IMG/VR virus record: IMGVR_UViG_3300035698_011158
Location: 1 to 47,984 of that record
Origin: a virus
Length of the DNA stretch: 47,984 bases
Strand: one strand, 5' to 3'
Shown: positions 2,393-22,634 of the stretch, in pieces
Numbering within the stretch: the first letter of the stretch is position 1
Layout of the letters: the number at the start of each line of letters is the position of its first letter
The notes under the pieces: model-generated
The model's input: the letters and a program-made list of their open reading frames with translations, nothing else
Databases searched by the model: none
Told to the model about the DNA's origin: nothing
Translations under genes and position numbers: made by a program

Positions 2393-2430
2393 CTAGGTCA
2401 ATGATTACCCAAATTAAAATCCAAACTTGA

Positions 2431-4768: not shown

Positions 4769-4791
4769 AATAAACCACCTTGGGCTTTTGG

Positions 4792-5748: not shown

Positions 5749-5758
5749 TTTTTCTCCT

Positions 5759-6343
5759 TTAATACTTATTCAGGAAATTTGCAGATGCATCCAAAAATTG
5801 TGATACATCAATCAATTCCCGAACATCTCCAAAGTTTTCGCTTTCACGCAGAAAAGCCCCTTGTGTAGAGGGCATTGATACTAAGTCAAAACAAATTAGT
5901 TGATAATCTTCTTGAACCATGTTTGAGTCATCAACACTCCCCACGCCTCTTGAACTAATCCCCAATGGAACTTCGGAAGCTATTAGCTGTTTCGCAATTC
6001 TTCCTGCTGGCGTGTCCAGAATCAGTATCTCACCTTCAACCGTAGTTCCCGACCACCAATATTTTTTGATTAGGTGGGACGAGTTCTGCAAGTTAACTTC
6101 GGGCGTTGTTGGATGATCTAACTCACCCAAAGCCCTGTTTTCATTAATCAATCGTTGATATTTCTTTAGCTCCCGTTCAAGAACCGCAAATGGGTAAATT
6201 CTACCGTTACGATTTTCCTCGTCAGCTTTTTGCAATGGTCCCCGAATGATTAAAGGTGCTTTCGTGTTGATAGCATTTTTAGCTTCTCTAACTAAAGATT
6301 CATTTATATTAATTAGCGTTGTTTCTGTTATAATGCCTTTCAT
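5759..6343 (-). CDS. Prohead maturation protease, T4 gp21-like
   Basis: 194-aa serine protease of the T4 gp21 (MEROPS S80) type. Seen directly: IRGPLQKADEENRNGRIYP near residues 33-51, the catalytic-His motif LGELDHP (His77) and the Ser motif LGISSRGVGS (Ser130/131), followed by LICFDLVSMPSTQGAFL, the usual substrate-pocket region. It cleaves capsid, scaffold and other prohead proteins during maturation. The gene starts at ATG 6343 and overlaps the stop of the 287-aa gene by one base. Length is close to gp21 (212 aa). No missing key residue is apparent. Confidence 0.95.
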   Translation of the reverse strand: MKGIITETTLININESLVREAKNAINTKAPLIIRGPLQKADEENRNGRIYPFAVLERELKKYQRLINENRALGELDHPTTPEVNLQNSSHLIKKYWWSGTTVEGEILILDTPAGRIAKQLIASEVPLGISSRGVGSVDDSNMVQEDYQLICFDLVSMPSTQGAFLRESENFGDVRELIDVSQFLDASANFLNKY

Positions 6344-7206: not shown

Positions 7207-8863
7207 TAGAATTCTCCTTAAAATGATTAGCTAACTCTTTATATATTTTACCCGCAAATTGTCTGTTTTCCATAGCCATTGGACTATCCGTATCAGGTTT
7301 ATCCACGCCCATCTCTCCCTTATCATAACCAGCCCGATCTTCACCCCCATCTTCATCATCCCACATTTCTTCTCCCTCGCCACTAGCGAGTTCATCATGG
7401 GGATTGGTCTGAATTCGTTTGAGTTCTCTTCGAATTTCTTCATCAGAAAGTCTAAGGAAATGCTGCATAGCCCACTCAACAGAGAATGCTTGATCTTTAC
7501 CCGTAGCTTCCTTGAAGGCATCAATTCTTTCTTTCCAAAGAGTTATTTGCATAAGCTCTGCTTGGTGAGAAGGATTTGTCATAGTAAGTTTGAAATTTAA
7601 AACATCATTACTATGAATACCCTTAAGGTATAGATGAATAATCGCCAATCGCGTAAGACCCGTAAGGAACGATTTCTGAACTCGCTGAATCGTGCGAGAG
7701 AATCTAACATCCTCTTGGGACAAGAGACTCTTAGCTGAGATTTCATCTTCATAAGTCAAGTAAGCTTTGGGAACTTTAAGAACAGCAAACAGCTTCTTCT
7801 GAATGTATTCAATATCCTCAATGTCACTCATATTCTGTGCGCCAGGAAGAGTATCAATTGCAGAACTCTGGCCTCCTCTAGAGGGAAGGAAATAATCTTC
7901 GTCAACAGCCATAGGATTATAGCGTAGATGTGTTAATCCAGAATTCTTTTCAACCGTACTTGTTTTCTTAAGCTTTCGTTTTACCGATTCAAGGTAATCA
8001 CCAACATCTTTCGGATTCATATTTCCGACTTCAATATTGAACACTCTACGCTCGGGAGCGCGAGTAATACGATAGACCATCATAGCATCTTCCAACATAG
8101 TTAATTGCTTGAAAATCCTGCGACCAGCATCTAGAATGCCTCGGCTATAAGGTTTAAACTTATCGTCCCCACCCATTCCAAAATGAGCCATGTTGATATC
8201 ATCAATATAGGGCTTATCTTGTAGGGCATTGATATAGAATTGCCCCGTCTCACTAAGCCGTAACCATTGGTATCTAATTTTCTCGGGATTTTCCTCATCA
8301 TAGCCCATTTCTTTAGCAACTTCAATAGAAGGTAGGGGCAATACGCGAATAACACCATTCTTCTCTTCAGTTTCGGTATACATAAAGATGTCTCCATATT
8401 TACAGAGACTTCGTACCCAAGGCCACGCATTATTCTCAATATCTAGGACATTGTAAAATAGATCCTCTAGATATTCTTTGATCTTTTTATCCTCTGAATA
8501 GATAGAAAGTAATTGACCCTCTTCATTAGTAATTGTTGCTTCATCTGCATAGATATCCATAGCAGATGAAATCATAGGCTCGAACTCCATCATTTCAAAA
8601 TCTTGGTATCGGGCCTTTCGATCATGAACCTGAGAACTTTCAATTGCTTGCTGATAATAGGTATACTGAATTTTGTCGGATAGACGATCAATGATTTGCT
8701 GTGTTGTACTACCCTCATGATCACCAAGATCATCATAAAAGATTGACTTAGGAGTATGAGGACTTACTTTACGAACAAGACCCGAATAATCACTAGGTCT
8801 ACGATTTTGATTCGCATTGACCAGCGTTGTAAATGTTACTGGTTTCTTAGGCATTACAGGCAT
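7199..8863 (-). CDS. Portal vertex protein, T4 gp20-like
   Basis: 554 aa, similar in size to T4 gp20 (524 aa). Clear family signatures: MLEDAMMVYRITRAPERRVF, VDEDYFLPSRGGQSSAIDTL, IEDIEYIQKKLFAVLKVPKA and SLLSQEDVRFSRTIQRVQ. These make up the wing, stem and clip region of the dodecameric DNA-entry portal. An acidic, low-complexity C-terminal stretch (about 480-520, GEGEEMWDDEDGGEDRAG) precedes the end. Start ATG 8863 is chosen over the ATG 9 bases downstream because TAGGAG is correctly spaced from it. Lies 8 bp after terminase, as expected for a packaging motor operon. Confidence 0.95.
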   Translation of the reverse strand: MPVMPKKPVTFTTLVNANQNRRPSDYSGLVRKVSPHTPKSIFYDDLGDHEGSTTQQIIDRLSDKIQYTYYQQAIESSQVHDRKARYQDFEMMEFEPMISSAMDIYADEATITNEEGQLLSIYSEDKKIKEYLEDLFYNVLDIENNAWPWVRSLCKYGDIFMYTETEEKNGVIRVLPLPSIEVAKEMGYDEENPEKIRYQWLRLSETGQFYINALQDKPYIDDINMAHFGMGGDDKFKPYSRGILDAGRRIFKQLTMLEDAMMVYRITRAPERRVFNIEVGNMNPKDVGDYLESVKRKLKKTSTVEKNSGLTHLRYNPMAVDEDYFLPSRGGQSSAIDTLPGAQNMSDIEDIEYIQKKLFAVLKVPKAYLTYEDEISAKSLLSQEDVRFSRTIQRVQKSFLTGLTRLAIIHLYLKGIHSNDVLNFKLTMTNPSHQAELMQITLWKERIDAFKEATGKDQAFSVEWAMQHFLRLSDEEIRRELKRIQTNPHDELASGEGEEMWDDEDGGEDRAGYDKGEMGVDKPDTDSPMAMENRQFAGKIYKELANHFKENSND

Positions 8864-8871
8864 CTAATCTC

Positions 8872-10431
8872 CTAGTCATCAAGTAGCCAACGAAGATCCC
8901 CTAAATCGGGATCTTCCCAGGGATCATTCTCCCTATTGTGAACAGCCATTTGTGGTTCCATAACTTCTGCAAAGGTTTGAAATTCAGGCGTAAGATAGTC
9001 CGCATCTAAGAGCGTATGCGAATTTCGTAGATTCTCATACCTTAAATAACTAGACATTGCAAGCGGTATCACAAGGTCATCATTGTAATTTCTCATCGCT
9101 TGTGCTTTACCGTTCAACCAAATGAACACATCAAGCTCATCGAGCAATCTTTTCGAACGAATCTTAAGAGAGCAAGGATTCATGACCTCAACCATAGAAT
9201 CAATCACTCTAGGTCTTACGAGGGATGACATTGTGAATCCTGGCACCATTTGAACCTCGGATTCTACAGGTGCGAAAGGATTCACTTTTGTCTTTTGCGC
9301 TCGACTCGTATAGTAGATGTTAGAATAACCTTCTTCAACCAACGAACTCACAGCAGCCCACCCAAGACCGTTATTTTCCACGACTAATTGCGCTTTATTA
9401 TAAGTAGTTGCTGCTTTTAGTAAAAGTTGAACAAACTCCGTAGTATTTATCTTGTCTTTGAATTCTTCTACCTGGTCATGATCTTCTAAGTCAAATACTT
9501 CATAGGCGGAAAAGTCATTTCCGTCTCCACGCGCAACATCAGCAGCAACAACATACTGTTTTTCTGGCTCCACAAAAGCCCAATTCCAGATAGCATTATT
9601 AGGTCCAGATTTCTTGATAGGATCTCGCATCGTGTTCTTACGATACCATTGCAGAGATTCTGCTTGAACAACCGTATTACCAGAAGCGATAAACGAGCAT
9701 TCGTATTCCTGTGCCATTTTCTGCTTGTCAAATCCAAGAGCCTTGAATGCATCTTCCCACCATACTTGATCTCGCTCGGGATGAAGATCCCAATTGAGAG
9801 TACTAGGCTTGAAGTCGTTAAGCTCCGACTCAGCTTCAACAAACATCTTGTGGAAGAAATTTCCCTGTCCATTGGGAGTCGAAAGAATAATAGCATCTCC
9901 ACCCGTAGAAAGCGTAGGATAAGCTGCCGTCCAGAGGATATCAATGTTCTTAATGAAAGCGGCTTCATCAAGCACCAAGAGACTCAACGCTTCGGAGCGC
10001 CCCGCATCATCGGATGAAGGAGAAGCCACACAGGTTGAACCATTAGCGATTGTTACACTCTGTTGGTTATCAGAGGTAAGTTTGGGTTTCAGGAAATCTG
10101 GAAGGCATCGTAGGAATACCTTGACCTTCGTAATGAAGTTGATTGCTGTTGACTGTTTGGTAGCGATAACCAAGATCTCTTTGTTGGGATGAAAGATCAT
10201 CAACCAAGTGCAATAACCCGCCACAAGCGTAGACATTCCTAGCTGTCTACTCTTAAGGATAATCGTAAAACGCTCAGTTAAGAAGTCCCCCAATGTTGTC
10301 TCCTGAAAATCATACATCTTGAAAGGGATCAAACCCTTAATAGGATGACGCACCTTTCCATAGGTTAGGAGAAAATAGAGGCAGTTCCTAGCACATTTAA
10401 TGAACTCAGTTTTTTGATCTTGTATTTCCAT
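8872..10431 (-). CDS. Terminase large subunit, T4 gp17-like packaging ATPase/nuclease
   Basis: 519 aa with both terminase domains. ATPase: Walker A-like SRQLGMST (61-68), Walker B plus catalytic Glu LLVLDEAAF (151-159), coupling motif LSTPNG (183-188). RNase H-like nuclease: first Asp in VVAADVARGDGNDFSAY (Asp298, Asp303), a Glu/Asn motif VVENNG (around 350-355) and a late Asp pair NDDLVIPLA (451-452). It threads DNA through the portal encoded next to it and makes the headful cut. No ribosome site is visible before ATG 10431; the upstream stop is 3 bases away, so translation is probably coupled. No small terminase subunit gene is recognised nearby. Confidence 0.96.
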   Translation of the reverse strand: MEIQDQKTEFIKCARNCLYFLLTYGKVRHPIKGLIPFKMYDFQETTLGDFLTERFTIILKSRQLGMSTLVAGYCTWLMIFHPNKEILVIATKQSTAINFITKVKVFLRCLPDFLKPKLTSDNQQSVTIANGSTCVASPSSDDAGRSEALSLLVLDEAAFIKNIDILWTAAYPTLSTGGDAIILSTPNGQGNFFHKMFVEAESELNDFKPSTLNWDLHPERDQVWWEDAFKALGFDKQKMAQEYECSFIASGNTVVQAESLQWYRKNTMRDPIKKSGPNNAIWNWAFVEPEKQYVVAADVARGDGNDFSAYEVFDLEDHDQVEEFKDKINTTEFVQLLLKAATTYNKAQLVVENNGLGWAAVSSLVEEGYSNIYYTSRAQKTKVNPFAPVESEVQMVPGFTMSSLVRPRVIDSMVEVMNPCSLKIRSKRLLDELDVFIWLNGKAQAMRNYNDDLVIPLAMSSYLRYENLRNSHTLLDADYLTPEFQTFAEVMEPQMAVHNRENDPWEDPDLGDLRWLLDD

Positions 10432-10434: not shown

Positions 10435-10893
10435 TTAGATTATGCAGAATACTTGATTCGAATCAAGTATTGTAATCTTCCCTTCGGTGACAGTCTTGTA
10501 ACACTCCCAATTATGAGAATTTGATAGTGTTTTGATCTTCCACTTTTTCCGAATCAGATATTCCCTAAACACTGAGGGATTGGTTAAGAGATCCTTCTCT
10601 CTTATTGCACTATCAAATAGTCCACGATGAAATGCAAAAAATAGAAAATCTTTATTGAAATGCACTCCTTCTATAATCGCACTCACTTCCAAATATCTAA
10701 CAATATCATTGTGCCAACCCCGTTTTAGAAAACTACAATCAGAACTTAAGAGAACCACAAAATTACTGCGACTATCTACATTCTGGTAAGCCTCTTTCCA
10801 GGTGGGTTTCTGAATAATTTCATAGCTATTATGCTTCATGGATTCTTTGATAAGATCATCAAGCTTATTGCTTTTAACTAAAATTGATAACAT
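10435..10893 (-). CDS. Unknown protein with a possible truncated GT-A glycosyltransferase core
   Basis: 152 aa, last gene of the sugar-modification cluster and directly before terminase. Residues 45-70 read NFVVLLSSDCSFLKRGW, then NDIVRYLE, which resembles the strand-Asp-x-loop-GW region of GT2/GT-A transferases, where a DxD-type motif is followed by a GW-x-(D/E) acceptor segment. The usual N-terminal nucleotide-binding half is shortened, and no complete DxD is present. It may be a degenerate transferase, a partner subunit or a coincidental resemblance. The gene is intact and tightly packed (2 bp from its upstream neighbour), so it is likely expressed. Confidence 0.7.
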   Translation of the reverse strand: MLSILVKSNKLDDLIKESMKHNSYEIIQKPTWKEAYQNVDSRSNFVVLLSSDCSFLKRGWHNDIVRYLEVSAIIEGVHFNKDFLFFAFHRGLFDSAIREKDLLTNPSVFREYLIRKKWKIKTLSNSHNWECYKTVTEGKITILDSNQVFCII

Positions 10894-10895
10894 AA

Positions 10896-11699
10896 CTAAC
10901 CCCCAAAATTATCGTAACCCCATTGATCAGAATCGAGATTTACGATAGCTTCTGTCATTGAAACAGGATGAAAATTAGGCCATTCCTGTGATCCAATTTT
11001 CTTCTTTGCCATATAAGATATATAGTGTTGTAAAGCTTTAGAATGCTCTCCTAAAGCAAAAGGCATATCTTTTTTGAACTTCTTATTGAATGCTCTAAAC
11101 CAGTAAATCCATTTCGTTGAAATCTGTTCCCGCGTCATAAAGGTGTTATCATAATTAATGGGAAGCAGTAAAGTCTCGGACACTTGTTTAGCTCTGGTAG
11201 CATTATCATAGCATGGTTGGTGGCTCCCCCCGTCATTGACAATGGTGATTGTTCCCTGAATGACAGCCTTGTTAAGTGCAAAAAGAACATGGTTGCGATT
11301 GATCTTGAATTGATCCTTACAGAAGAAATTGATTCGTCCAAAGTTAATTCTGTCCCTATCATTATTCTCTTCAAATATAGCCTTGATATTGTCCGCTTGG
11401 TCTGTTCTAAAAAGGGAATCAACATCTAGTTTCAAGGCCCAATCTTTTGTGCAAGCATCCAGCCCAACCTGTAAGTGAGTTTTCATATCGTCATAGTGCC
11501 AATCCTCGGGCCATGCATCGGTATTGATAACCTTAATCTTGCTACTCAAGGCTCGGATTCGGCCTTCACTAGACTCTTCTTTACGCCCACATACAACGAT
11601 AACTTCATCTGAAAAGGGAAGCACAGAAGCGATAGACTGTATGTAAGGAAACCCCATTTTCTCTGGTTCGGTAACGATAAAATATGTCGATATTGTCAT
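10896..11699 (-). CDS. Glycosyltransferase, GT-A fold
   Basis: 267 aa. The N-terminus (MTISTYFIVTEPEKMGFPYI) and the segment FSDEVIVVCGRKEESSEGRI resemble the nucleotide-sugar-binding half of GT-A enzymes. KDWALKLDVDSLFR (around residues 85-98) supplies the metal-binding DxD (Asp-Val-Asp). The C-terminal half is aromatic- and Lys-rich (KWIYWFRAFNKKFKK) and probably binds the acceptor. Donor and acceptor cannot be told from sequence. ATG 11699 overlaps the TGA of the FkbM-type gene (ATGA), so the two are translationally coupled. Confidence 0.85.
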   Translation of the reverse strand: MTISTYFIVTEPEKMGFPYIQSIASVLPFSDEVIVVCGRKEESSEGRIRALSSKIKVINTDAWPEDWHYDDMKTHLQVGLDACTKDWALKLDVDSLFRTDQADNIKAIFEENNDRDRINFGRINFFCKDQFKINRNHVLFALNKAVIQGTITIVNDGGSHQPCYDNATRAKQVSETLLLPINYDNTFMTREQISTKWIYWFRAFNKKFKKDMPFALGEHSKALQHYISYMAKKKIGSQEWPNFHPVSMTEAIVNLDSDQWGYDNFGG

Positions 11700-12307
11700 A
11701 TCAAATCCCTTCTCATAAACAATTCACCATCCACCCGTTCATAGCCGTAATCAACCAACTCCTTAACCACTCTCCGTTCCCAATCCTTAAATATCTCCTG
11801 GCCTTTACCATGAAACTCAACACAGATTACACCTACCTGAAGATTACTCTTAATCAGATCCTCTAGGACTTCATACTCAGACCCCTCAATGTCTATCTTA
11901 AGAAGATCAATTTTAGAATGTTTCAATTCTTCCATAATTGTATGAAGTCTCTTACAAGGAGCGTTAAATCCTGGTTTTTTCTTAAGCTGTTCAAAAGTAG
12001 AATAGGAATCACGCCCTTTTCCTGGTGCAAAAAAGTAGTAATCCCGATCCTTCTCGGCAATGCCGTACTGGTGGACTATAAAATGTTCCTCAAGAAACCC
12101 CTTTTCTTTTTGGAGTTCCCTCACATATTGAATCGATTTAGGTATGGGATCAAAACCGTGAACTACGCACCCATATTTCTCAATGATAGCAATATCAAAA
12201 CTGATATCTCTACCTAGACCACCCGAATAGACAATCGAATCCTTTGTCAAGAAATTGGAAGGAATTGTCCAGCCCCCGTAGGAAGTGCCGTGTCGTTCTA
12301 TTTTCAT
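11696..12307 (-). CDS. FkbM-family SAM-dependent methyltransferase
   Basis: 203 aa. The FkbM signature LLKIDIEGSEYEVLEDL is at about residues 135-151. Upstream motifs are IVYSGGLGRDISFDIAI (SAM loop), VVHGFDPIPKSIQYV (acidic strand 2) and VHQYGIAEKDRDYYFF. FkbM enzymes typically O-methylate sugars or polyketides and often sit in polysaccharide gene clusters. All core elements appear present. Start ATG 12307, 2 bp after the upstream stop. The likely acceptor is a sugar built by the neighbouring transferases; this is inference. Confidence 0.92.
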   Translation of the reverse strand: MKIERHGTSYGGWTIPSNFLTKDSIVYSGGLGRDISFDIAIIEKYGCVVHGFDPIPKSIQYVRELQKEKGFLEEHFIVHQYGIAEKDRDYYFFAPGKGRDSYSTFEQLKKKPGFNAPCKRLHTIMEELKHSKIDLLKIDIEGSEYEVLEDLIKSNLQVGVICVEFHGKGQEIFKDWERRVVKELVDYGYERVDGELFMRRDLI

Positions 12308-12309
12308 TT

Positions 12310-12888
12310 TTATCCTTTTTGTAAGAGGAAAATGGTATCTTTTACATCACATATAGCTTTTTTTAGAACAACGATATTATTCTGTTCAAAAAAAGCATAC
12401 GATCTTTCTAATGAAAATATACAAGGATCTTCAGCAGTTACTTCAGAAAGTTCCATACTTTGATTCCATATAATTGCTCCATCAGGCTTTAAACAAGAAA
12501 ACCAATGGAGTAGTGTTTCTCCCGCATCTATCGCATGATCTAATGAATTTGTATAAATAAGATCCCACTTATTCTTCCAATCTTCGGGGAGGCTATTAAA
12601 ATCCATAATGAAATCGGCATCCGATTTCCTGCTAATGTCTAAAGAATACACCCTACAAGAAAATAAAAATTCTTGTAAGAATTTTTTCTCATTTTCATTT
12701 CTAGTTCCCATACAAATTATATTCAATTTTCGATTTACAACAAAATCTTCTATAAATTCTGCTATCCGCAAATAGAAATAAGAAGGTTTTTTCTTTTTTC
12801 TTTTTTTAAAGTGTCTATAAATTTGTATCTCCTCGTAATCTTCAACCGCTTTATATTGATACTGTTTTGTTTGAAGTTTAATCCCCAT
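12310..12888 (-). CDS. Class I SAM-methyltransferase-like protein
   Basis: 192 aa. After a basic N-terminal extension (RHFKKRKKKKPSYFYL) comes a Rossmann-type core: NIICMGTRNENEKKFL (motif I), VYSLDISR (motif II), DADFIMDFNSLP and WDLIYTNSLDHAIDAGETLL, then LKPDGAIIW. The TNSLDHA segment resembles a set of small methyltransferases that I associate with environmental phages. Motif I has Gly-Thr-Arg in place of the usual GxGxG, so SAM binding should be tested. AT-richer than its neighbours, with an A-rich block in the 5' part. Confidence 0.8.
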   Translation of the reverse strand: MGIKLQTKQYQYKAVEDYEEIQIYRHFKKRKKKKPSYFYLRIAEFIEDFVVNRKLNIICMGTRNENEKKFLQEFLFSCRVYSLDISRKSDADFIMDFNSLPEDWKNKWDLIYTNSLDHAIDAGETLLHWFSCLKPDGAIIWNQSMELSEVTAEDPCIFSLERSYAFFEQNNIVVLKKAICDVKDTIFLLQKG

Positions 12889-12898
12889 AGGAAATCTT

Positions 12899-13453
12899 TT
12901 AACTCTTGGCTTTCATAGTTGTCCTCTTTTTAAAAACTCCCATTAAATCAACTAATTCAATAAGCTCATATTTTTCTTCTATAACCTGATAATACTGTCG
13001 ATCCTTAGCCGCGTACTCATGAACAAAAAGAATTCCATTCTCCTTTAAATGAGGATAGATAAAACGACAACATTCGGGTCTAGCTCGTCCATCGACAAAA
13101 ACACAATCAAAGGTTATTTTAAAAGACTTTGGGCTTTCTATATATGACTTAAAAGTTTCATAGGAAGTTGACTGAATCAATTCATCCCATGAAGTAGCAT
13201 GAAGAAATTTCGTACTTTGTTTCTTTTTATAGGGCTTATCTGGTGGAGATAATATACGTGAAATATTTGTATCTTTTACCGCGTTTTCGAGCCTCTTGTA
13301 CCACCTCTCATCGTGTTCAATAGAATATAGAGCCTTAACAAAAGGAGCAAAATATATAGTAGACCCCCCGCTACCATATTCCAACAAATTTTTTTCAAGA
13401 GAAAGGTAACTTTCAATAGTTTTAATTTCCTTATCAGTCATCCAAACTTTCAT
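12899..13453 (-). CDS. Methyltransferase-fold protein (GSGGST loop)
   Basis: 184 aa. Class I methyltransferase outline: NLLEYGSGGSTIYFAPF (residues about 21-37, Gly-rich SAM loop), ALYSIEHDERWYKRL (strand 2 acidic end), FDCVFVDGRARPECC (motif IV with Asp-Gly-Arg) and LKENGILFVHEY. The VDGR-ARPEC motif resembles small methyltransferase-like proteins of bacterial sugar clusters. Overlaps the next upstream gene by one base (TAATG-type junction at 13453). Acceptor unknown. Confidence 0.8.
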   Translation of the reverse strand: MKVWMTDKEIKTIESYLSLEKNLLEYGSGGSTIYFAPFVKALYSIEHDERWYKRLENAVKDTNISRILSPPDKPYKKKQSTKFLHATSWDELIQSTSYETFKSYIESPKSFKITFDCVFVDGRARPECCRFIYPHLKENGILFVHEYAAKDRQYYQVIEEKYELIELVDLMGVFKKRTTMKAKS

Positions 13454-13980
13454 TACTTTACCTTCTTTACAGCCGTAATATGCCGTCCTTTTGACCTATT
13501 TATCTCGCCCAAACAAGAAATTTCATAACCTAGATCCTCAAATTTATTGCCGTCCCAAGAAGAAATATGCTTCTCATTGGGATTACCCCCAAGATTCCCT
13601 TGTTTACGAGTCCCATAAGGACAGCCTAGAACAACTGCAACCTTTGCTTTTTTCTCTAGGTATTCAAGTGTGGTTTCTAACTCATCTTCAGCAATATGTT
13701 CTGGGCCATGCCACCAGAATACGATATCAAACTTTCGATTTACCTTGAAATCCCGCACATCGCCTTCAATCACCTTCGTAATCCAATCAAGAGTTTCAAG
13801 GTATTCCACATTCTTCGGAAAAATTTCTAGAACAGTTATCTTATATTCAGCCTTTCGAAATTCACTACTCAAATCAAAACGATTTCCTCTTGCTCCCACA
13901 TACAAAACCGTCTTGTGGTCAAAAATATCAGGAAATAACTCCAATAGAGAATCGATTCTATCCCTTTCAGTAATAATCAT
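13453..13980 (-). CDS. Class I SAM-dependent methyltransferase
   Basis: 175 aa. TVLYVGARGNRFDLSSEF is motif I, YKITVLEIFPKNVEYL motif II, WITKVIEGDVRDFKV motif III and FDIVFWWHGPEHIAEDEL motif IV with the characteristic WWHGPEH. VVLGCPYGTRKQGNLGGNP follows in the substrate region. This WWHGPEH/GCPYG arrangement is a recognisable small methyltransferase type of phage and bacterial surface-sugar clusters. The core looks complete. Start ATG 13980, one base from the preceding stop. Confidence 0.87.
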   Translation of the reverse strand: MIITERDRIDSLLELFPDIFDHKTVLYVGARGNRFDLSSEFRKAEYKITVLEIFPKNVEYLETLDWITKVIEGDVRDFKVNRKFDIVFWWHGPEHIAEDELETTLEYLEKKAKVAVVLGCPYGTRKQGNLGGNPNEKHISSWDGNKFEDLGYEISCLGEINRSKGRHITAVKKVK

Positions 13981-13981
13981 T

Positions 13982-14653
13982 TCACTTTACCTTCTTTCCT
14001 AGTATTGCGATATAGAGTGCTGGCTCTTTCGGCCAGAGTGTCTTTGTTCGTAATTTCGTTATCGACAGATTAAAATGTTTGAAATCCATCGAAGTGAAAT
14101 GCACAGGAACCTCTTTCGTAATGATCTGGTGGAGACTTTCTCTCGGATACCAAGGCTCAATCAGTTTAGCGAATTTAAATACCTCATCATTCGTAGGAAA
14201 CAGAGCCTCTTCCCAAAAAGTTGACCACAGATAGTTACCCTCTTCATAGGCCCATTCCTGTTCCTGATCCGTAAGCCAACCCACCCTATAGTTTTCGAAT
14301 CTCCAATGATCCCCAAGCCCCCAATCTAAAAAGAAAGTACCACCTTTTCGTAAATACTTGTGTATGTTATAGAGGAATTGGTTCTTATCCTTTGCAAAGT
14401 AAGGACATCGAGTAGATACAATAAGATCATAATCATTATCCATTAAGGTCCAATAGGAATTAATTTCCCATTTAAGAGCTTCCCCTGGATAGTAGTTATC
14501 ACTCCCCTGAATATCATAAAGCTCAATGTAACCCCCGCGCTTTTTAATATACTCAGGAATGGTAGTAAACCCCAATAGGGCTATTTTCCTATAAACTTTA
14601 TCTGGTAGAAGGGAATCATACCATTTTTCTAGTATAGCATTACTCTTGCCCAT
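13982..14653 (-). CDS. Divergent methyltransferase-like protein
   Basis: 223 aa. The middle has a methyltransferase-like layout: YIELYDIQGSDNYYPGEAL, DYDLIVSTRCPYFAKDKNQF, then YLRKGGTFFLDWGLGDHW. Motif I near the N-terminus (KIALLGFTTIPEYIKKRG) lacks a GxGxG loop, so SAM binding may be lost or unusual. Very aromatic (many Trp and Tyr in WAYEEGNYLWSTFWEE). Sits in the run of methyltransferase genes with 2-bp spacing on both sides, so it belongs to the same unit. Exact role unknown. Confidence 0.78.
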   Translation of the reverse strand: MGKSNAILEKWYDSLLPDKVYRKIALLGFTTIPEYIKKRGGYIELYDIQGSDNYYPGEALKWEINSYWTLMDNDYDLIVSTRCPYFAKDKNQFLYNIHKYLRKGGTFFLDWGLGDHWRFENYRVGWLTDQEQEWAYEEGNYLWSTFWEEALFPTNDEVFKFAKLIEPWYPRESLHQIITKEVPVHFTSMDFKHFNLSITKLRTKTLWPKEPALYIAILGKKVK

Positions 14654-14655
14654 AA

Positions 14656-15387
14656 TTACCCCCGCACTTTACATAAGATACGCTGCTCTTGTCTAACCGT
14701 AGTTAATGCATAAAGAACTTCGAACCCTAAATCTTGAGCCATTCCACTCAATTCGCCCCACCCAAAGTTAAAACAATGTCCCGATTTGATACCCAAACTT
14801 CCCGTTTCGGTGGGAACCTCAATATGAAGATAGGAAGTCTCATCCATAGCATCATGAAGCTTTTTGAAAGCCTCTTCGGGATGAATTAGGTGTTCAAAAC
14901 AATGGTACGAAACTAGTAAAGATCTTGATACCTCTGAAATGGGAAAAGGTTCAGTAGAAGAAAGGTCATGTTCTATACACTCGTAGCCCAAATACTTCCC
15001 TATCAAAACATTCAATTTTACTATATCAATCCCTATGCTAGTCTTACCCGAACCTTCAAAAAACTGTAATAAATGGGGTGTCCTAAAACCTAAATCGATG
15101 AAATGATCAAAATCTGAATTTGAAATACGCTCTGTAAGTTCCCGAATTCGAAGATAATCAAAATTGTTAAGTTTCTGCTTCAAGGCATTAACAACAGGTG
15201 CTAAAGTATCTTCAACCCGCAAACCTTCTTTAAAATCAATCCCTCTTGAAGCTTGCAAAACCTCATATAGCAGATTCGTATCTTGATTAAGAGTGTCTAG
15301 ATTTCTAACAGAAGCCCAATTGTCATTCCCTTTATAATCAAATAGCCGCACTATTTCATCGCGGATCTGCTCTTTTAGTTCAGTCAT
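14656..15387 (-). CDS. SAM-dependent methyltransferase (type 11/12-like)
   Basis: 243 aa. An N-terminal helical region of about 95 residues precedes the core: HFIDLGFRTPHLLQFFEGSG (motif I), SIGIDIVKLNVLIGKYLG (motif II), ECIEHDLSSTEPFP (motif III) and SLLVSYHCFEHLIHPEEAF (motif IV). HLIHPEEAFKKLHDAM is typical of methyltransferase_11/23 proteins. YLHIEVPTETGSLGI and HCFNFGWGELSGMAQDLGF complete the C-terminal sheet. Overlaps the deacetylase gene by 8 bp. Confidence 0.85.
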   Translation of the reverse strand: MTELKEQIRDEIVRLFDYKGNDNWASVRNLDTLNQDTNLLYEVLQASRGIDFKEGLRVEDTLAPVVNALKQKLNNFDYLRIRELTERISNSDFDHFIDLGFRTPHLLQFFEGSGKTSIGIDIVKLNVLIGKYLGYECIEHDLSSTEPFPISEVSRSLLVSYHCFEHLIHPEEAFKKLHDAMDETSYLHIEVPTETGSLGIKSGHCFNFGWGELSGMAQDLGFEVLYALTTVRQEQRILCKVRG

Positions 15388-16063
15388 TTAACAACTCCCC
15401 CATGAAACAGAAATCGGGAGAATCTAACTTCCTGAGAAAGACAGCTAACTCCAATTCTTTTTCATCATCAAGATAGCTTTTGTCCCATTCACAAGCATGA
15501 TAGACAATTTCAGTATAAGGTTCGTCAAGCTTCAACTTTTTGAAGGGAGGATTTACTGTGCAATAAACGATTTTTGATTCGTCTATATTTGAAGCACCCC
15601 CCACAATTTGAATATCGGGATGTAAAGCCAAAGTGAAATTGAAAACCTTCTGCGCTATATGAGCCGATCCCGCACTCATACGAAATGCTGAAGGTCTAAA
15701 CAATAACCCTGCTTCAATTCCTACGTATCGCATCTGATCGATCATCTGATGAAAGTATTCCATTGCATTTTTAGTGGGCATGTTCTTAAATTCATCGTTG
15801 TTAGAAGTCAATGTCCCATGCGTGATTCCATGATAACCAATTTCAAAATTCTCTTTCGGTAAATCTCGAATTTCCTCACAAAAACTTGGGTAGGAATTCA
15901 GAGGATAAGAGAACTCCCCTAACCGCTTGTAAGCCGTAGGAATGAATAGCGTGAACTTGATATCGGGAAACTCTTCTATGAGCCTATAACATTGCACTAA
16001 GACCTTCGTTGAAGATCTGGGATGCGGACTGATATCGTCTATGCTAATGTTTATTTTTGGCAT
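15380..16063 (-). CDS. Polysaccharide deacetylase-like (NodB/DUF2334-type) protein
   Basis: 227 aa. NodB-type motifs are present in order: INISIDDISPH (Asp-Asp metal motif, residues 5-15), EIGYHGITHGTL (HxxxH metal motif), LLFRPSAFRMS (the RxP region) and EIVYHACEWDKSY (C-terminal His). Such enzymes remove N-acetyl groups from amino sugars, or act as related metal hydrolases. In this cluster it probably tailors a sugar before or after transfer. Overlaps the following glycosyltransferase stop by 20 bp. The substrate cannot be read from sequence. Confidence 0.85.
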   Translation of the reverse strand: MPKINISIDDISPHPRSSTKVLVQCYRLIEEFPDIKFTLFIPTAYKRLGEFSYPLNSYPSFCEEIRDLPKENFEIGYHGITHGTLTSNNDEFKNMPTKNAMEYFHQMIDQMRYVGIEAGLLFRPSAFRMSAGSAHIAQKVFNFTLALHPDIQIVGGASNIDESKIVYCTVNPPFKKLKLDEPYTEIVYHACEWDKSYLDDEKELELAVFLRKLDSPDFCFMGELLND

Positions 16064-16937
16064 TGTGAATGTCCCCCATAAATTTTATGTAATCTGCGAA
16101 TGTGTTTTTTAACACTTTGGGCCTATTAGGTTGAAAAATATTAATACTACGAGCTATATGATATACCTTTTCCAACAATTCTTCCTCGATTAAAAAGGTT
16201 CTTTCAGAATTCGATACTATTTCAGAATTTCCCCCCTGATTTAATACGAGAGGGATACAACCACACGCTATTGCTTCAATCAAGGAGTTTGAACAAGTAT
16301 CATTTGAAGATCCCGAAACAAAAATACTATGCTGTCGCAATTCCTTAGCTAATTCTTCTGAAGATAAGGGTGGAACCATTCGTATATTCTTAAACTTAAT
16401 GGGAGAATTACCTACAAAGGTCATAGAATACCTATTGAAATTTAAGGTACGATCTAAGAAGTCTAGGTAGGAGAACCCCTTACGCGGATTTGTTGACCAA
16501 GAGGTGCTAATCAAGCTATTTGTTTTGGGGATTCCCTCAACATAAAAAATATCTGGATCAGCAGAATTATGGATTATACCAGAGGGCTTTCCCACTTTTA
16601 ATCCGTTTTCAATATGCGCTTCTTTAGACCATTTAGATTGAAAAATAATCGCGTCCGCATAGCCTTCAGCAAAGTCATAGACAAGTTGATCCCTGAATTT
16701 CTCATGTGCACCCCTGTAGAGGGTAAACACTCCGTCAATCCTATGAATGATCGTCTTGCCTCGTTGCTTCCCCATCTTAGCAAGTTCCAAATGGTCTTTG
16801 CTATTCACCAAAACTATATCTGCTTCACTTGGATTATCGGTATATTGATCTCCAAGGTAATGACGCAACGCTTTCAAGAACTGGTTGCCACCACCCCAAG
16901 GCCCACCAACAAAGTTATGCAGTATGTGTATCTTCAT
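16044..16937 (-). CDS. GT4-like (GT-B fold) glycosyltransferase
   Basis: 297 aa from ATG 16937 (MKIHILHNFVGGPWGGGNQF). A longer in-frame extension upstream is rejected because it lies inside the previous gene. The N-terminal domain has the Gly-rich start and the pair IVLVNSKDHLEL and IIHRIDGVFTLYRG. The C-terminal donor-binding domain has LISTSWSTNPRKGFSYLDFL and SGSSNDTCSNSLIEAIACGC (the E-x7-E-like region), then PLVLNQGGNSEIV. Retaining GT-B transferases of this kind use nucleotide sugars. Overlaps the preceding gene by 23 bp. Confidence 0.87.
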   Translation of the reverse strand: MKIHILHNFVGGPWGGGNQFLKALRHYLGDQYTDNPSEADIVLVNSKDHLELAKMGKQRGKTIIHRIDGVFTLYRGAHEKFRDQLVYDFAEGYADAIIFQSKWSKEAHIENGLKVGKPSGIIHNSADPDIFYVEGIPKTNSLISTSWSTNPRKGFSYLDFLDRTLNFNRYSMTFVGNSPIKFKNIRMVPPLSSEELAKELRQHSIFVSGSSNDTCSNSLIEAIACGCIPLVLNQGGNSEIVSNSERTFLIEEELLEKVYHIARSINIFQPNRPKVLKNTFADYIKFMGDIHNAKNKH

Positions 16938-17898
16938 TAGCCACCTTCCAGCAATTTTCGACCATCTCATCATAAACCTTGACATGCTTCTTGATATCAA
17001 GAGAAAGGGCCTTCTCATGATTATGTTTAACCATAGAACGAACCCCATCAGCACCTAGCATAGTAATGCGATTTCCCATTTCCTGCTCATCTTTGCAAAT
17101 TGAATAGGGATGAAGCGTCCTTACCGTTGATCCCACCTTCGTTGAAAGAACGGGTTTCTGCACTAGACTCGCTTCAAAAATCGCCTGTGGACCCCCCTCA
17201 TTACGGGAGGTAACGAGATAAACATCTAGCATGTTGTAAAGGATATTGAGCTTTTCTGTATTTACATTTTCGTAATATGTATAAGGGATATCTCGCTTTT
17301 CTAATTCTGCAATGATATACTGTCTCCTGTATCCCGCTAGCAGCACGTGAGGCGTTGCCACCGATTCCTTAAGAGCTTCCATGATTGCTACAAATCTATC
17401 GGGGCCTTTCGAAAGCTTAGGAGTTTTAAGGTCGAAACCTTCTGTATCCCGCTGGAAAGAACCAAAAACCATAGCATCCCCTGGATCAAAATCAGGAAAA
17501 TGCTTTGATATTAGTTCGGTTAGTTCGGGTTCTGGAATTGGGAAGAAATCTTCCTTATTACACCAGTAATCGGTAAGCATCACAGGAGAATCACTTGCTC
17601 TGTCGATAACATTGTAGGCAAACACATCTTGAGTAAAGTAGTGATCTACGAACTCGTCACGAAGCTTAAATTCCCTAAGATCAAATTTCTTGGGATCAAT
17701 GTGATGAATCGTACAAATGACAAATTTTTCTTGAAGAACTGGAACGGGAATCTTTGCCCATACCCAAGGAGCAATCAACCAAATGATATCCGCTTCTTTT
17801 GGATCATCTACAACTTCATGACTCGTATGTTCCAAGAATTCTCGTCTAATTCGATCCACAATCCAACCTTCGGCGGGATCATTAACATACAGCTTCAT
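16915..17898 (-). CDS. GT4-like (GT-B fold) glycosyltransferase
   Basis: 327 aa from ATG 17898 (MKLYVNDPAEGWIVDRIRRE). Upstream in-frame residues belong to the overlapping methyltransferase gene. The C-terminal domain carries MVFGSFQRDTEGFDLKTPKL, then KGPDRFVAIMEALKE, LNILYNMLDVYLVTSRNEGG and PQAIFEASLVQKPVLSTKVG, the usual GT1/GT4 donor-site sequence with the EGGPQAIFEA motif. The N-terminal acceptor domain has WLIAPWVW and FVICTIHHIDPKKF. The ATG shares one base with the TAA of the upstream gene. Confidence 0.88.
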   Translation of the reverse strand: MKLYVNDPAEGWIVDRIRREFLEHTSHEVVDDPKEADIIWLIAPWVWAKIPVPVLQEKFVICTIHHIDPKKFDLREFKLRDEFVDHYFTQDVFAYNVIDRASDSPVMLTDYWCNKEDFFPIPEPELTELISKHFPDFDPGDAMVFGSFQRDTEGFDLKTPKLSKGPDRFVAIMEALKESVATPHVLLAGYRRQYIIAELEKRDIPYTYYENVNTEKLNILYNMLDVYLVTSRNEGGPQAIFEASLVQKPVLSTKVGSTVRTLHPYSICKDEQEMGNRITMLGADGVRSMVKHNHEKALSLDIKKHVKVYDEMVENCWKVANEDTHTA

Positions 17899-18608
17899 TA
17901 GGCTTCCTTTCGCTTTATGATTACCAAACCCTGGTCTTTTTCGGGACCGTGTTCGCCTTCGAAGAGATGCCCCCGAAATTCGACCATTTCGACTTCCCAC
18001 TCGCCCGAATCAATAACTTTGTCTACGACAGGAGTTACGCCGAGGCCCCATTCACAATTGTAATCATCAAAGAGGATCAAGCCCCCTTCTGCAAGCATAA
18101 ACTCCGAAAGCCAAAAATCATCCATGATAATGTCGGCGTCATCGTGATTTCCGTCGATGAAAATCAGATCGAAGTGGCCTTTGTAATCATCGGACTCAAA
18201 ATGCTTATTATCGGCATTAACGAAGCTAATCTTCCCTTTTCCTGGGATATTTAATATGTCGTAGAGTTGTTTGTTTGAAAGGGTAACTGGTTCCCACATT
18301 AACGCGGTTTGTTGCTCTTTTTCGAAAGGAACAACATCAATCGTAACAATTTCGGCTATTTCGGGGATCATACCCAACACATAGCTTGTAGTTCCGCGAC
18401 CTGTTCCAATTTCAAAGAATTTCTTGGCCTTAATGTGTTCCGCAATCGCTTTGATCAAATATTGCTGTTCCCAACCTCTTTCAAAGCGTTTTCCTTCGGG
18501 TCTTGCTCTCGTTTTCGTCACTTTGCAAATTGCGTGAACAAGCTTCTTATCTTTCTTCCAATTATAGCCAATTTGATGAAAATAAGTCTTAAGATCCGTA
18601 GTTTTCAT
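17898..18608 (-). CDS. SAM-dependent methyltransferase (Methyltransf_24-like)
   Basis: 236 aa. KKFFEIGTGRGTTSYVLGMI (around 60-79) is motif I with a good GTGRG loop; AEIVTIDVVPFEKEQQ is motif II; FDLIFIDGNHDDADIIMDDF is motif IV with the D-G-N-H-D metal-type motif; EGGLILFDDYN follows. IDGNHD/FDDY is the signature of the cephalosporin hydroxylase and sugar O-methyltransferase group (Methyltransf_24). Overlaps the upstream GT4 gene by 20 bp. Confidence 0.9.
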   Translation of the reverse strand: MKTTDLKTYFHQIGYNWKKDKKLVHAICKVTKTRARPEGKRFERGWEQQYLIKAIAEHIKAKKFFEIGTGRGTTSYVLGMIPEIAEIVTIDVVPFEKEQQTALMWEPVTLSNKQLYDILNIPGKGKISFVNADNKHFESDDYKGHFDLIFIDGNHDDADIIMDDFWLSEFMLAEGGLILFDDYNCEWGLGVTPVVDKVIDSGEWEVEMVEFRGHLFEGEHGPEKDQGLVIIKRKEA

Positions 18609-19581
18609 AAATCTCCTTTAGAAACACTAGATAGCGGTCTGCAACATTGCTAATATCAATTTTATCGTGAACAGCCGTAAAATCATGCTCTTTTTCGAGT
18701 GAATCCGCAACTGATTGTGCAATTATACTATAATCATCCGACATTAAAGGGGGACTATAGGTATCTTGAATCTCCGTATGCCATCGTTCAGGTGCGATAA
18801 CCCCACAAGGTGGATCACCTAATAGTTCCTTGGTTCCCCCTGATGCAGAACATAGCACAGGCACAGAATGCCCCAACGCTTCCACAACGGAATTGGGGCA
18901 ATTGTCTAGGTATGTCATATGGAAAAAGTAGTCTGAGGAACGATAGAACGCCGCCATTAGATTATCATCGATCTTTTTTCGGATGATATAGACATCTTCA
19001 TCTTCAGTATACGCCGAACACCAAGTAAAATCGCCTACCATTACAAATGCAATGGGATAGTCAACGATTTTTTTGAGTTCTTCGAAAACTGCAAGATTAT
19101 CCTCGGGCCTTTTGTTGGGCCTCCAGCTAGATGCGCTGAAAATGACTTTTTTGTAATCCTTCAGGTAGTCAAGACGCTTCTTTTTACCGCTATAGAGGGA
19201 AATTCCGTTGTTTACTAGGGAAAAGGGCTTATCTGAGGCTGGAAAATGCTTTTTTACCAGCATAGCGGTAAAATTCGACTGAAAGATATGTCCATCGACC
19301 TGATTGTAAGTGTCGATTATGTGATTGTTGCCGTTTTTGTGGGTTAGTCCCTCGAAGTTGGTTTGGGAGTTCAGATAAATCCCATCTAAGCGTTGAGCGT
19401 AGGGCTTATCCGCTAGTAGAGGCAGATTATTTGATATGAATATTAGTCCAACATCGAAATCCTCTTCATTCGTCCAAATAACTTTATGGTTTTTACGGAT
19501 GAATTCTTCGGCTAGCCTTGCGGCAAACTTTCCTGGGCCAGAGTTAACTTCGGGATTCACTCCCTGTATCTGTATCTTCAT
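18589..19581 (-). CDS. GT4-family glycosyltransferase
   Basis: 330 aa starting at ATG 19581, after GGAAAGAGG. Complete GT-B layout: MKIQIQGVNPEVNSGPGKFA (N-terminal Gly loop), then VDGHIFQSNFTAMLVKKHFP and LVNNGIS (linker), FSASSWRPNKRPEDNLAVFE (donor domain start), VMVGDF, and YFFHMTYLDNCPNSVVEALG with HSVPVLCSASGGTKELLGD, where the ExxxxxxxE-type donor motif is clear. Overlaps both neighbours (38 bp upstream, 20 bp downstream), showing strong compaction. Confidence 0.9.
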   Translation of the reverse strand: MKIQIQGVNPEVNSGPGKFAARLAEEFIRKNHKVIWTNEEDFDVGLIFISNNLPLLADKPYAQRLDGIYLNSQTNFEGLTHKNGNNHIIDTYNQVDGHIFQSNFTAMLVKKHFPASDKPFSLVNNGISLYSGKKKRLDYLKDYKKVIFSASSWRPNKRPEDNLAVFEELKKIVDYPIAFVMVGDFTWCSAYTEDEDVYIIRKKIDDNLMAAFYRSSDYFFHMTYLDNCPNSVVEALGHSVPVLCSASGGTKELLGDPPCGVIAPERWHTEIQDTYSPPLMSDDYSIIAQSVADSLEKEHDFTAVHDKIDISNVADRYLVFLKEIYENYGS

Positions 19582-20344
19582 CAACGAACCTCTTTCCTTG
19601 GTCTATGTATAGTTTAACCGCTTCACGAATGAACATCTCTGTTTCAATCTGCTTGCCCTCATGCACATGTCTTGTATCACGATCTTCCATATCGTACATG
19701 CAGATTGGGATTGGATTGAAATGGATCTTGTCGTTGTCTACCGACTTTAATATGGGAAGCATAAAAGCCTGATCATAAGCTGAATCCCAAAACACCCCAT
19801 TACGAGGATCAACAAACATTTCGTAAGGAATGTCGGTGAAGTATTTTCGCTTGAAAGTCTTAAGATGAGAAGCAACCCAAGCATAATCTTCATAAGTATT
19901 AGCATCTTGGACATGCTTAGGATATTTTCGGCAATGACCAAACTTCATATGCCAAGCTCTCCAGGGAGCATGACGCAAAAACTGTCCATAACTTACGTCA
20001 TATTTCTCATGGATTCCACGAATGATACAAGTAGCATTAGCCAACAGCCAATCGTCTCCATCCAACTGTGCAATGATTGTAGAGCTACCCTTTAACTGGT
20101 TCACAATAATGTCATAGACATTGTGTAGCGGACCTTGGCGTTCTGAGTTTTCGTAGAGCGTAATTCTAGGCTCATTGTCTACAAGAAGATGAAGCTTTTT
20201 ACGGCTGGCCGAATCAAAATCAGAATGATCGTCAATGATATGCGCCAACCAATTCTCGTCCTCTTGCATGAAGAGACTCTGTATACAACGCTCTAACAAT
20301 TCGAAACGACCCTTAAATGGAATAATATAGTTAACTCTTTCCAT
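19544..20344 (-). CDS. GT2-family glycosyltransferase
   Basis: 266 aa from ATG 20344 (MERVNYIIPFKGRFELLERC). The longer upstream frame lies within the neighbouring gene. GT-A features: IQSLFMQEDENWLAHIIDDH (first nucleotide-binding Asp), then STIIAQLDGDDWLLANAT with the DGDD metal motif (around 93-96). The acceptor half is Trp/Tyr-rich (RHAPWRAWHMKFGH) with an FWDSAYDQAFMLPIL segment in place of the usual ED catalytic motif. Overlaps the next GT2 by 14 bp; the two are probably diverged relatives. Confidence 0.9.
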   Translation of the reverse strand: MERVNYIIPFKGRFELLERCIQSLFMQEDENWLAHIIDDHSDFDSASRKKLHLLVDNEPRITLYENSERQGPLHNVYDIIVNQLKGSSTIIAQLDGDDWLLANATCIIRGIHEKYDVSYGQFLRHAPWRAWHMKFGHCRKYPKHVQDANTYEDYAWVASHLKTFKRKYFTDIPYEMFVDPRNGVFWDSAYDQAFMLPILKSVDNDKIHFNPIPICMYDMEDRDTRHVHEGKQIETEMFIREAVKLYIDQGKRFVDEDTDTGSESRS

Positions 20345-21107
20345 GTTCCATATCCTTGTAGTAAGGGTATTTGGCATTTCTATTTTTTGCTCTAATTTCC
20401 CAATCGGTTTTCTTTTGCAGTCCTTCTTGGGCAATGAAGTCACAATTCTCATGAATGTTGTAGAGCAAAAGAGGTTCCTGAACTGCCACAACATTCTTTT
20501 GTTCACACATATTCAACATTGGAAAAATGAAAGATAAATCCCAGGCAATCCGATAAAAATTACCCTCTTTGTCTTTCATATCTTCGTGCTTAACTTCATC
20601 CCAAAGGAATCTTCTATAGGTTCTTAACTGAGAGGCCCACCATCCAAACGAGGAATGGGATTTTTCATTCCATACAAAATCGGGGTATTCCCTACATACA
20701 ATAAGCTCCCCTGTAGATCTTTGGTGTGATCCATAGGTAAGCCATATATTTTCGTCTTTGTAAATTTGATCAAGCTTCTGAAGGACAAACTTGTGCATGA
20801 GTCTATCGTCCCCATCCACCTCTAGGAGAACATCAGCCGACTTGCTTTCACAGTTTTTGTTTAACCAATCCCATCCAAAGATTAAATTGTAGAGTCCATA
20901 CATTCTTTCGGATTGCTGCACTACAGTAAAACGATCATCATACTTTGTGGCCTTTACTGCAAGCTCGTAAGTCCTATCTGTTGTATCGCCATCCACAACC
21001 ACAATTGACTTAAATCGATCATGTGTCTGCGACTTGATGCTTTTAATACATGTCTCAATATAACGTTCACAATTCCTAGCGGGAATCACAATATGGAAGT
21101 TAATCAT
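20331..21107 (-). CDS. GT2-family glycosyltransferase
   Basis: 258 aa. MINFHIVIPARNCERYIETC and IKSIKSQTHDRFKSIVVVDG form the classic GT2 N-terminus. SADVLLEVDGDDRLMHKFVL holds the DGDD metal site, and the C-terminal half shares the W-x-S-QLRTYRRFLW and IAWDLSFIFPMLN pattern with the adjacent GT2, suggesting an old duplication. Cytoplasmic, no membrane segment. One base separates its start from the stop of the upstream 165-aa gene. Confidence 0.92.
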   Translation of the reverse strand: MINFHIVIPARNCERYIETCIKSIKSQTHDRFKSIVVVDGDTTDRTYELAVKATKYDDRFTVVQQSERMYGLYNLIFGWDWLNKNCESKSADVLLEVDGDDRLMHKFVLQKLDQIYKDENIWLTYGSHQRSTGELIVCREYPDFVWNEKSHSSFGWWASQLRTYRRFLWDEVKHEDMKDKEGNFYRIAWDLSFIFPMLNMCEQKNVVAVQEPLLLYNIHENCDFIAQEGLQKKTDWEIRAKNRNAKYPYYKDMEHGKS

Positions 21108-21605
21108 CTAAATAACCTCACCTTTTCTTGTATGTTTAGTCCTAATACGACCACGATTTTCTATCAAAGGATATATATTCACTGTTGAATTCATTCGGGA
21201 ATATAGATAACGTCTGTAGGCTTTCAGCAACCTTGGAGCAGACCTTTTAAGTAAAAAGTAAAAGAGCCTACCGTCTGCTTTGGGAAATCTAGCTTTGAAT
21301 TGTTCAAGGGTCAACCAATATTTTTTGTTCATATAACGAATATTAATCGCCTCTAAAAATGGTCGTTCACATTTTATATCCGCATAAAGAACAAAAACTA
21401 CAGGATTTTCATCCCACGCCCAGGGTTTTCTATACTTAAACTTATATATAGTTCCTGGTTCAATATCAGATTTTCTACGTTGACGAGTGACCTCTTTCGG
21501 TCCCTTAGTATCCTTGGGACTCTTAGGTTGAGTTCGCTGTATTGCAGCTTGCCTCTTAACCCGCGTTTTCCAATGGATAGATTTCATTCTTTTCATATTA
21601 GCCAT
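21108..21605 (-). CDS. Conserved-looking phage protein of unknown function, first gene of late unit
   Basis: 165 aa from ATG 21605, just downstream of the 21.65-kb terminator, so it is the first gene of the late unit. The N-terminal 45 residues are very basic (RMKSIHWKTRVKRQ). The core reads IEPGTIYKFKYRKPWAWDEN, then PVVFVLYADIKCERPFLEAI, and INIRYMNKKYWLTLEQFKARF, with a basic end LLKRSAPRLLKAYRRYLYSR. This F-x-Y-x-P-x-W-D-NPVVF-x-GIN-RYM layout recalls a small protein family of T4-like environmental phages, function unknown to me. Earlier in-frame ATG codons at 21647 and 21635 fall in the terminator and untranslated leader. Confidence 0.8.
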   Translation of the reverse strand: MANMKRMKSIHWKTRVKRQAAIQRTQPKSPKDTKGPKEVTRQRRKSDIEPGTIYKFKYRKPWAWDENPVVFVLYADIKCERPFLEAINIRYMNKKYWLTLEQFKARFPKADGRLFYFLLKRSAPRLLKAYRRYLYSRMNSTVNIYPLIENRGRIRTKHTRKGEVI

Positions 21606-21645
21606 TATACACAAAGTCCTTATAGAAGTATACATCGATAGACAC

Positions 21646-21686
21646 AAAAAAGCTTCCTACCCTTAAATAGAGTGGGAAGCTTTTTT
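21646..21686. terminator. Strong intrinsic terminator, usable on both strands
   Basis: Arms 21646-21660 and 21672-21686 pair over 15 positions (AAAAAAGCTTCC(T/C)AC with its complement; one mismatch or wobble), loop of 11 bases. The minus-strand product ends in TTTTTTG and the plus-strand product in TTTTTTC. It lies between the 62-aa gene (stop 21702) and the late unit (start 21605). It ends the early transcript that begins at 26.45 kb and insulates the late unit. Confidence 0.93.
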
Positions 21687-21701
21687 CTTAAAGAAGTGAT
21701 G

Positions 21702-22570: not shown

Positions 22571-22634
22571 ATAAAAATCCCCCCATTCAAGTCAAACTTA
22601 AATAGGAGGATCGTTCGATTTTATTCAGGACTAT

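Follow-up and report, generated by a model that had tools for sequence, protein, structure and literature searches.

A putative glycan gene module with a conserved core and a replaceable end beside the terminase gene of a T4-like myovirus

Results

Gene content of the locus

The window analysed in this study, by which we mean the whole stretch of 47,984 nucleotides from IMG/VR record IMGVR_UViG_3300035698_011158, is a 48-kb viral fragment of a T4-like myovirus, a virus of bacteria represented by environmental DNA only; its portal, terminase and prohead protease of T4 type and its capsid of gp23 type leave no doubt as to this assignment. Fifteen minus-strand genes lie head to tail at 10435-21107 and lead straight into those for terminase, portal, protease and capsid (Table 1), and all of the open reading frames on which the initial annotation was built are present where it placed them. 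The extents of these genes required adjustment, as the frames exist but the true starts of some glycosyltransferase (GT) genes are internal (the second GT2 gene and the second and third GT4 genes). With the starts that are supported by the relative L004, adjacent members of the module either share 1-23 nt or leave a gap of 1-10 nt, and the terminase gene starts 3 nt past the last of them. The proposed head gene order of terminase, portal, protease, (probable) scaffold and capsid is kept, but is interrupted by unknown genes between portal and protease (6343-7206) and between scaffold and capsid (4262-4768). The capsid protein itself is 621 aa long, exceeding its counterparts in RM378 and immuto, and carries a variable segment (approximately residues 145-320) flanked by parts that can be aligned to other T4-like capsids, this segment being a candidate surface domain. 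Upstream of the module, the match of the adjoining gene to T4 gp2 did not recur in its L004 homologue, and the gp2 assignment is weak.

Families were called using Pfam gathering cut-offs, and NCBIfam was also searched. Nine of the fifteen module genes score above the Pfam cut-offs, namely two GT2, three GT4, one Methyltransf_24, the DUF2334 gene (which we take to encode a NodB-like deacetylase), a marginal Methyltransf_23 and FkbM. The family calls made previously stand for these nine and are weaker for four methyltransferase-like proteins encoded at 12310-14653, all of which fall below the cut-offs (E values of 3e-5 to 0.01), and for the 267-aa GT-A candidate, which has a DVD motif but gave no Pfam or NCBIfam family match. 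Single-sequence structure prediction of this candidate and of one weak methyltransferase was unconfident (pLDDT 34), and profile comparison of the same two proteins with the core alignments returned no match; several of the putative accessory activities rest on weak profile matches. Two of the accessory genes (12310-13453) have a GC content of 0.30-0.34 as against 0.37-0.45 in the head genes. The DUF2334 gene, five GT genes, the methyltransferase genes and FkbM adjoin T4-type portal and capsid genes and form a contiguous run, as in the glycan clusters of T4-like phages.

The gene next to the terminase specifies a 152-aa protein that had been regarded as a short GT-A-like member of the module. 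This protein gave no Pfam or NCBIfam match, can be aligned to the full-length GT-As of L004 and L002, and is devoid of the first Asp of the DQD motif, of the internal glycine-rich segment and of the C-terminal HHVGRS block. Because these parts are missing, the gene is, as judged from the alignment, a decayed GT-A remnant, and it would mark the spot at which the end of a former module gave way to the present one. The reading frames of the other 14 of the 15 genes are intact and tightly packed.

In no module product does hydrophobicity exceed the threshold customary for a transmembrane segment, and all look soluble. The module is without an initiating lipid-linked transferase, a flippase, a polymerase or any further membrane protein, and a domain search of the whole window retrieved no nucleotide-sugar epimerase, so that the notion of a full pathway goes too far. 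These absences point to the use of host nucleotide sugars and to an acceptor that is cytoplasmic or faces the cytoplasm. O-antigen conversion of the GtrABC type was ruled out, since its membrane components (the GtrA flippase, membrane-anchored GtrB and integral-membrane Gtr) are lacking from the module; the one weak GtrB-family match within it arises through the common GT2 domain only.

Table 1. Features of the glycan module and the adjoining head genes (MT, methyltransferase).
Feature	Position	Strand	Evidence
Terminator-like hairpin past capsid gene, downstream border	2362-2394	-	-24.1 kcal/mol; hairpin at same place in L004 contig (46157)
Major capsid protein, gp23 type	2431-4296	-	phrog_138
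Prohead protease	5759-6343	-	phrog_207
Portal, T4 gp20 type	7199-8863	-	PF07230 5e-87
Large terminase, T4 type	8872-10431	-	PF03237; 82-84% in relatives
Degenerate remnant of the GT-A seen beside terminase in L004 and L002, 152 aa	10435-10893	-	Alignment
GT-A candidate with DVD motif, 267 aa (accessory)	10896-11699	-	Sequence motif only
FkbM-family MT (accessory)	11696-12307	-	PF05050 2e-15; TIGR01444 above cut-off
MT-like, weak, AT-rich (accessory)	12310-12888	-	PF13489 E 0.01; GC 0.30
MT-like (accessory)	12899-13453	-	PF13578 E 3e-5, just below cut-off
MT-like, weak (accessory)	13453-13980	-	PF13489 E 0.003, below cut-off
MT-like, weak (accessory)	13982-14653	-	PF08241 E 0.003, below cut-off
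MT-like (accessory)	14656-15387	-	PF13489 (Methyltransf_23) 27.2 bits vs cut-off 27, marginal
DUF2334, NodB-like polysaccharide deacetylase candidate (accessory)	15380-16063	-	PF10096 5e-11; no L004 counterpart
GT4 glycosyltransferase (core, diverged), corrected start 16937 (ORF 16044-17054)	16044-16937	-	PF00534 1e-8; 38% in L004
GT4 glycosyltransferase (core), corrected start 17898 (ORF 16915-18000)	16915-17898	-	PF00534 5e-9; 72% in L004
SAM MT, Methyltransf_24 (core)	17898-18608	-	PF13578 1e-8; 72% in L004
GT4 glycosyltransferase (core), likely start 19560 (ORF 18589-19584)	18589-19560	-	PF00534 3e-10; 67% in L004
GT2 glycosyltransferase (core), corrected start 20344 (ORF 19544-20506)	19544-20344	-	PF00535 8e-8; 68% in L004
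GT2 glycosyltransferase (core)	20331-21107	-	PF00535 3e-15; 69% in L004
Gene upstream of module, weakly similar to T4 gp2 DNA end protector	21108-21647	-	phrog_429 E 0.0026; 68-70% in L004
Terminator-like hairpin and T-run, upstream border, contains CTATTTA	21646-21685	-	-20.1 kcal/mol; hairpin at same place in L004 contig (30000-30021)

Borders of the module-head block

Scanning for stable hairpins followed by T-runs identified terminator-like structures at both borders of the block in the window, with a further hairpin upstream of it at 22575 (-21.8), while the strongest hairpin inside the block (-17.1) lies within the terminase coding sequence. The corresponding border hairpins of L004 have values of -22.2 and -27.7, and its strongest internal candidate (-19.9) is located within a GT gene. 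Since the block is bordered by strong hairpins in the window and in L004 alike and contains no hairpin of equal strength, the gp2-like gene, the glycan module and the terminase, portal, protease and capsid genes are likely to constitute one transcription unit. Hairpin borders and gene packing, both read from sequence only, favour co-transcription of the GTs with structural genes and support the earlier view that the sugar- and methyl-transfer genes are contiguous with the head operon.

Neither the T4 late promoter TATAAATA nor the Bacteroidetes promoter pattern was found to be enriched. Hairpin elements containing CTATTTA recur intergenically at unit borders, both in the window (22599-22625 and 21664-21690, minus strand) and in the L004 contig (L099-L101; 27604, 30000, 46152 and 51681), and several of them are accompanied by an (A/C)ATAAAATYG-like sequence starting approximately 20 nt upstream. 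This element is possibly a phage promoter or an RNA-processing signal joined to a terminator; as the window shows no enrichment of the 7-mer as such, we make no claim to a promoter.

Conservation of the module among relatives

Relatives were collected from IMG/VR by terminase identity, which yielded five close contigs (82-84%), the partial contig L008 (55%) and L007 (44%), all others being at or below 33%. The 57-kb contig behind L004, whose terminase is 82% identical to that of the window, is colinear with the window, with nine genes between the gp2-like gene and the terminase as opposed to fifteen. The GT2-GT2-GT4-methyltransferase-GT4 series retains its order at 67-72% identity and is followed by a sixth gene (GT4) at 38%, whereas the nine remaining genes of the window give way in L004 to three different ones, which encode a GT-A, a sugar O-methyltransferase resembling MycE and TylE, and another methyltransferase. 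The search for the same gene order in other phages thus recovered the first six genes in L004 but not the other nine, and the view of the fifteen genes as one functional unit is not supported, as only six have L004 counterparts, others stand in place of the remainder, and the last of the fifteen is decayed. That the first six recur in order at these identities means, by sequence comparison, that the arrangement is not a product of chance. The terminal methyltransferase of L004, which has no equivalent in the window itself, matches the sugar O-methyltransferases MycE (7.6e-24) and TylE (1.1e-18) and can be aligned to MycE over 142 residues; this close homologue renders methylated sugars a plausible product.

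Elsewhere in the clade, the module of L002 ends in a GT-A and methyltransferase pair of the kind seen in L004, and L005 has yet another gene before its terminase, unlike those of the window and of L004 and L002. No GT is encoded directly upstream of the terminase in L007 or L008, and a search of T4-like IMG/VR contigs at greater distance detected no GT2 or GT4 domain in any of them. Scans of IMG/VR with the module proteins produced matches in L003 and L004 only, with the addition of L002 for the terminal GT-A. Among annotated phages, a nucleotide search with the module gave no match and tblastn with six module proteins returned only one distant GT2. A scan of genome contigs with the terminase for a hint of the host was empty. 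Because the module end differs between the window, L004 and L002 taken together, and L005, and because L007 and L008 have no GT at this place and the searched distant contigs no GT2 or GT4 domain, the module beside the terminase is a trait of a small clade; its core is conserved, and its terminase-proximal end can be exchanged. The varying gene content between core and terminase is akin to that of variable insertions in the structural module of T4-like phages.

Two features of the L004 contig are absent from the corresponding places in the window. An NAD-dependent sugar epimerase (PF01370; L004:736-1701) is encoded shortly upstream of the gp2-like gene and is a possible nucleotide-sugar supplier for the module; the whole window is without it. 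HNH-endonuclease-like reading frames are present at both borders of the module-head block (29986-30579 and within the gap 46085-46640), and these are possible mobilisers of the cassette.

Between the window and L004, five core genes gave pN/pS values of 0.21-0.28 against 0.15-0.34 for the head genes, and the sixth GT gave 0.56, these figures being rough as synonymous sites are near saturation. The five core genes are under purifying selection comparable to that on the head genes. Gene content, synteny, the conserved core as opposed to the replaced end, this selection and the block borders are direct observations. A further proposition is that the locus is a recombination hot spot beside the terminase, in which host-derived genes of little current use form mostly transient cargo or genome filler. 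A filler role has been proposed for cyanophage LPS clusters (PMC3037559), and a hot spot would account for accessory genes that are not common to the relatives, two of them AT-rich, and for the remnant. However, a core that is syntenic, intact and selected as the head genes are, and reading frames of which all but one are intact and closely packed, make this proposition highly improbable.

Discussion

The best explanation of these findings, albeit one to which we assign somewhat less than an even chance, is a clade-specific late glycan module that is co-transcribed with the head genes and has a virion protein as acceptor. The soluble GTs of the core (two GT2 and two to three GT4) together with one methyltransferase would build a short oligosaccharide in the cytoplasm, drawing on nucleotide sugars and S-adenosylmethionine of the host. 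The rapidly exchanged terminase-proximal enzymes (methyltransferases, FkbM, the deacetylase-like protein and GT-A) would then trim and cap this oligosaccharide, so that each phage lineage may carry a different outer sugar, and its transfer to a head (or tail) protein would result in a methylated, variable virion surface. A head or tail protein is the likeliest acceptor because the module appears to share a transcription unit with the portal, protease and capsid genes and has no membrane or lipid-carrier component; a structural protein made from the same transcript would be the most economical choice, a view that we hold tentatively. Co-transcription, late timing, the catalytic activities and the acceptor are matters that we infer, as is the glycosylated virion that had been suggested from the outset. 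Operon membership is insufficient to identify the acceptor, and the capsid, sheath and tail-tube proteins have no evident Ser/Thr-rich C-terminal acceptor tail. Placement beside the head genes is moreover not a general rule, as the two nearest annotated relatives keep their glycan clusters away from these genes.

A serious alternative, though one that we regard as less probable than a virion acceptor, is that the module acts on the host envelope, extending or capping a lipid-linked or LPS oligosaccharide with the aid of the host flippase and polymerase, and thereby blocks superinfection or the adherence of progeny to debris. GT4, GT2, FkbM and deacetylase genes are typical of O-antigen and LPS-core clusters, and a variable outer cap would also suit surface antigen variation. 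The clusters of T4-like cyanophages are usually read in this manner (PMC7824862, PMC2984593), and that of immuto contains pilin-glycosylation-like genes besides its aminotransferase and epimerase. On the other hand, no membrane or lipid-carrier component is found in the module and no nucleotide-sugar component in the window, while the head-block placement implies late expression, at which stage a change of the host surface would be less useful to a lytic phage.

Its position directly before the terminase also brings DNA glycosylation into consideration, whereby methylated oligosaccharides would be attached to hydroxymethylated phage bases prior to packaging as a protection against restriction. 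Hypermodification of DNA with a diversity of glycans by viral GTs has been described (Pyle et al. 2024, as cited in PMC12619734), and the replication region of the window encodes a DUF1599 (nucleotide modification associated domain 1) protein (44926-45411, minus strand), which is a hint of modified nucleotides. We nevertheless regard this possibility as unlikely, given that neither the window nor the 57-kb L004 contig, both being genome fragments, encodes a hydroxymethylase of the thymidylate synthase family, and that the module is situated with head rather than replication genes.

Whichever molecule is modified, the module probably supplies a component of the phage or of its host with a covering of methylated sugar that is open to change. 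Should the virion prove to be the acceptor, we know of no phage-encoded pathway for coat glycosylation that is more elaborate; it would be tied to head assembly, and the change of its outer cap between close relatives would allow variation of surface sugars in environmental phages to be tested. It is conceivable, though rather doubtful, that the head transcript provides a T4-type virion with a lineage-variable methylated glycan coat on its proteins, the conserved core of which would be assembled by five or six transferases, while a capping cassette that can be interchanged would act as a phage serotype switch.

Comparison with known systems

Glycan clusters of T4-like and specifically cyanomyovirus phages, variable genes near the terminase (the g15-g18 region) and virion glycosylation have each been described before (PMC3037559, PMC2984593, PMC12619734), for which reason the earlier remark that the system is not described in this form is overstated. 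The enzymes are of familiar kinds. What is unusual is the location in the head block and the layout of a conserved core with a swappable end; the transferase-dominated and methyltransferase-rich content differs as well.

Virion glycosylation in mycobacteriophages reportedly involves few GTs and not a long module. These GTs modify capsid and tail-tube subunits (Freeman et al. 2023, as cited in PMC12619734 and PMC10877033); the glycans are reportedly attached at subunit C-termini, a feature that is not evident in the unrelated phage described here. Chlorovirus PBCV-1 resembles the module in that its A64R protein, a GT fused to a methyltransferase domain, is proposed to add and methylate the terminal sugar of the capsid glycan (PMC4691112), but it is a eukaryotic virus with an unrelated capsid.

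Going by terminase identity (43%), the annotated phages closest to the window are immuto, which infects Flavobacterium, and the Microcystis phage Mel-JY01. Each possesses approximately ten clustered GT and methyltransferase genes, with an aminotransferase and an epimerase in the case of immuto; these clusters are located elsewhere in the genome, no GT run being present upstream of either terminase. In Mel-JY01 (L083), a protein of approximately 1230 aa that is annotated as an FkbM methyltransferase and contains a GT4 domain (4750-8430) adjoins an annotated structural protein approximately 7 kb upstream of the terminase.

In T4 gene numbering, g15-g18 spans the terminase genes g16-g17, as is the case for this region in S-CREM1. 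Large glycan gene clusters are established in the T4-like phages P-SSM2, S-SM2 and S-SSM7 (PMC3037559) and in jumbo phages (PMC7824862), and the module shares with the cyanophage clusters its long contiguous run of genes that is polymorphic among relatives (PMC3037559, PMC7824862, PMC2984593). The cyanophage clusters, however, are situated in the vicinity of hli03 or of phoH and tRNA genes and also encode nucleotide-sugar enzymes, neither of which applies to the module, which lies inside the head block and consists of transferases, rich in methyltransferases, and one deacetylase-like gene. In its variable insertion into the structural module near the terminase it resembles the hypervariable (hyperplastic) g15-g18 region of cyanomyoviruses, where 4-14 genes are inserted; the cargo described for that region is devoted to photosynthesis and carbon metabolism (PMC2984593), whereas that of the window is predicted to direct glycan assembly and includes a conserved core. 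Were the host envelope the acceptor, the locus would still present phage glycan genes with a fixed core and a swappable end at a site beside the terminase that is comparable to the hypervariable site of cyanophages.
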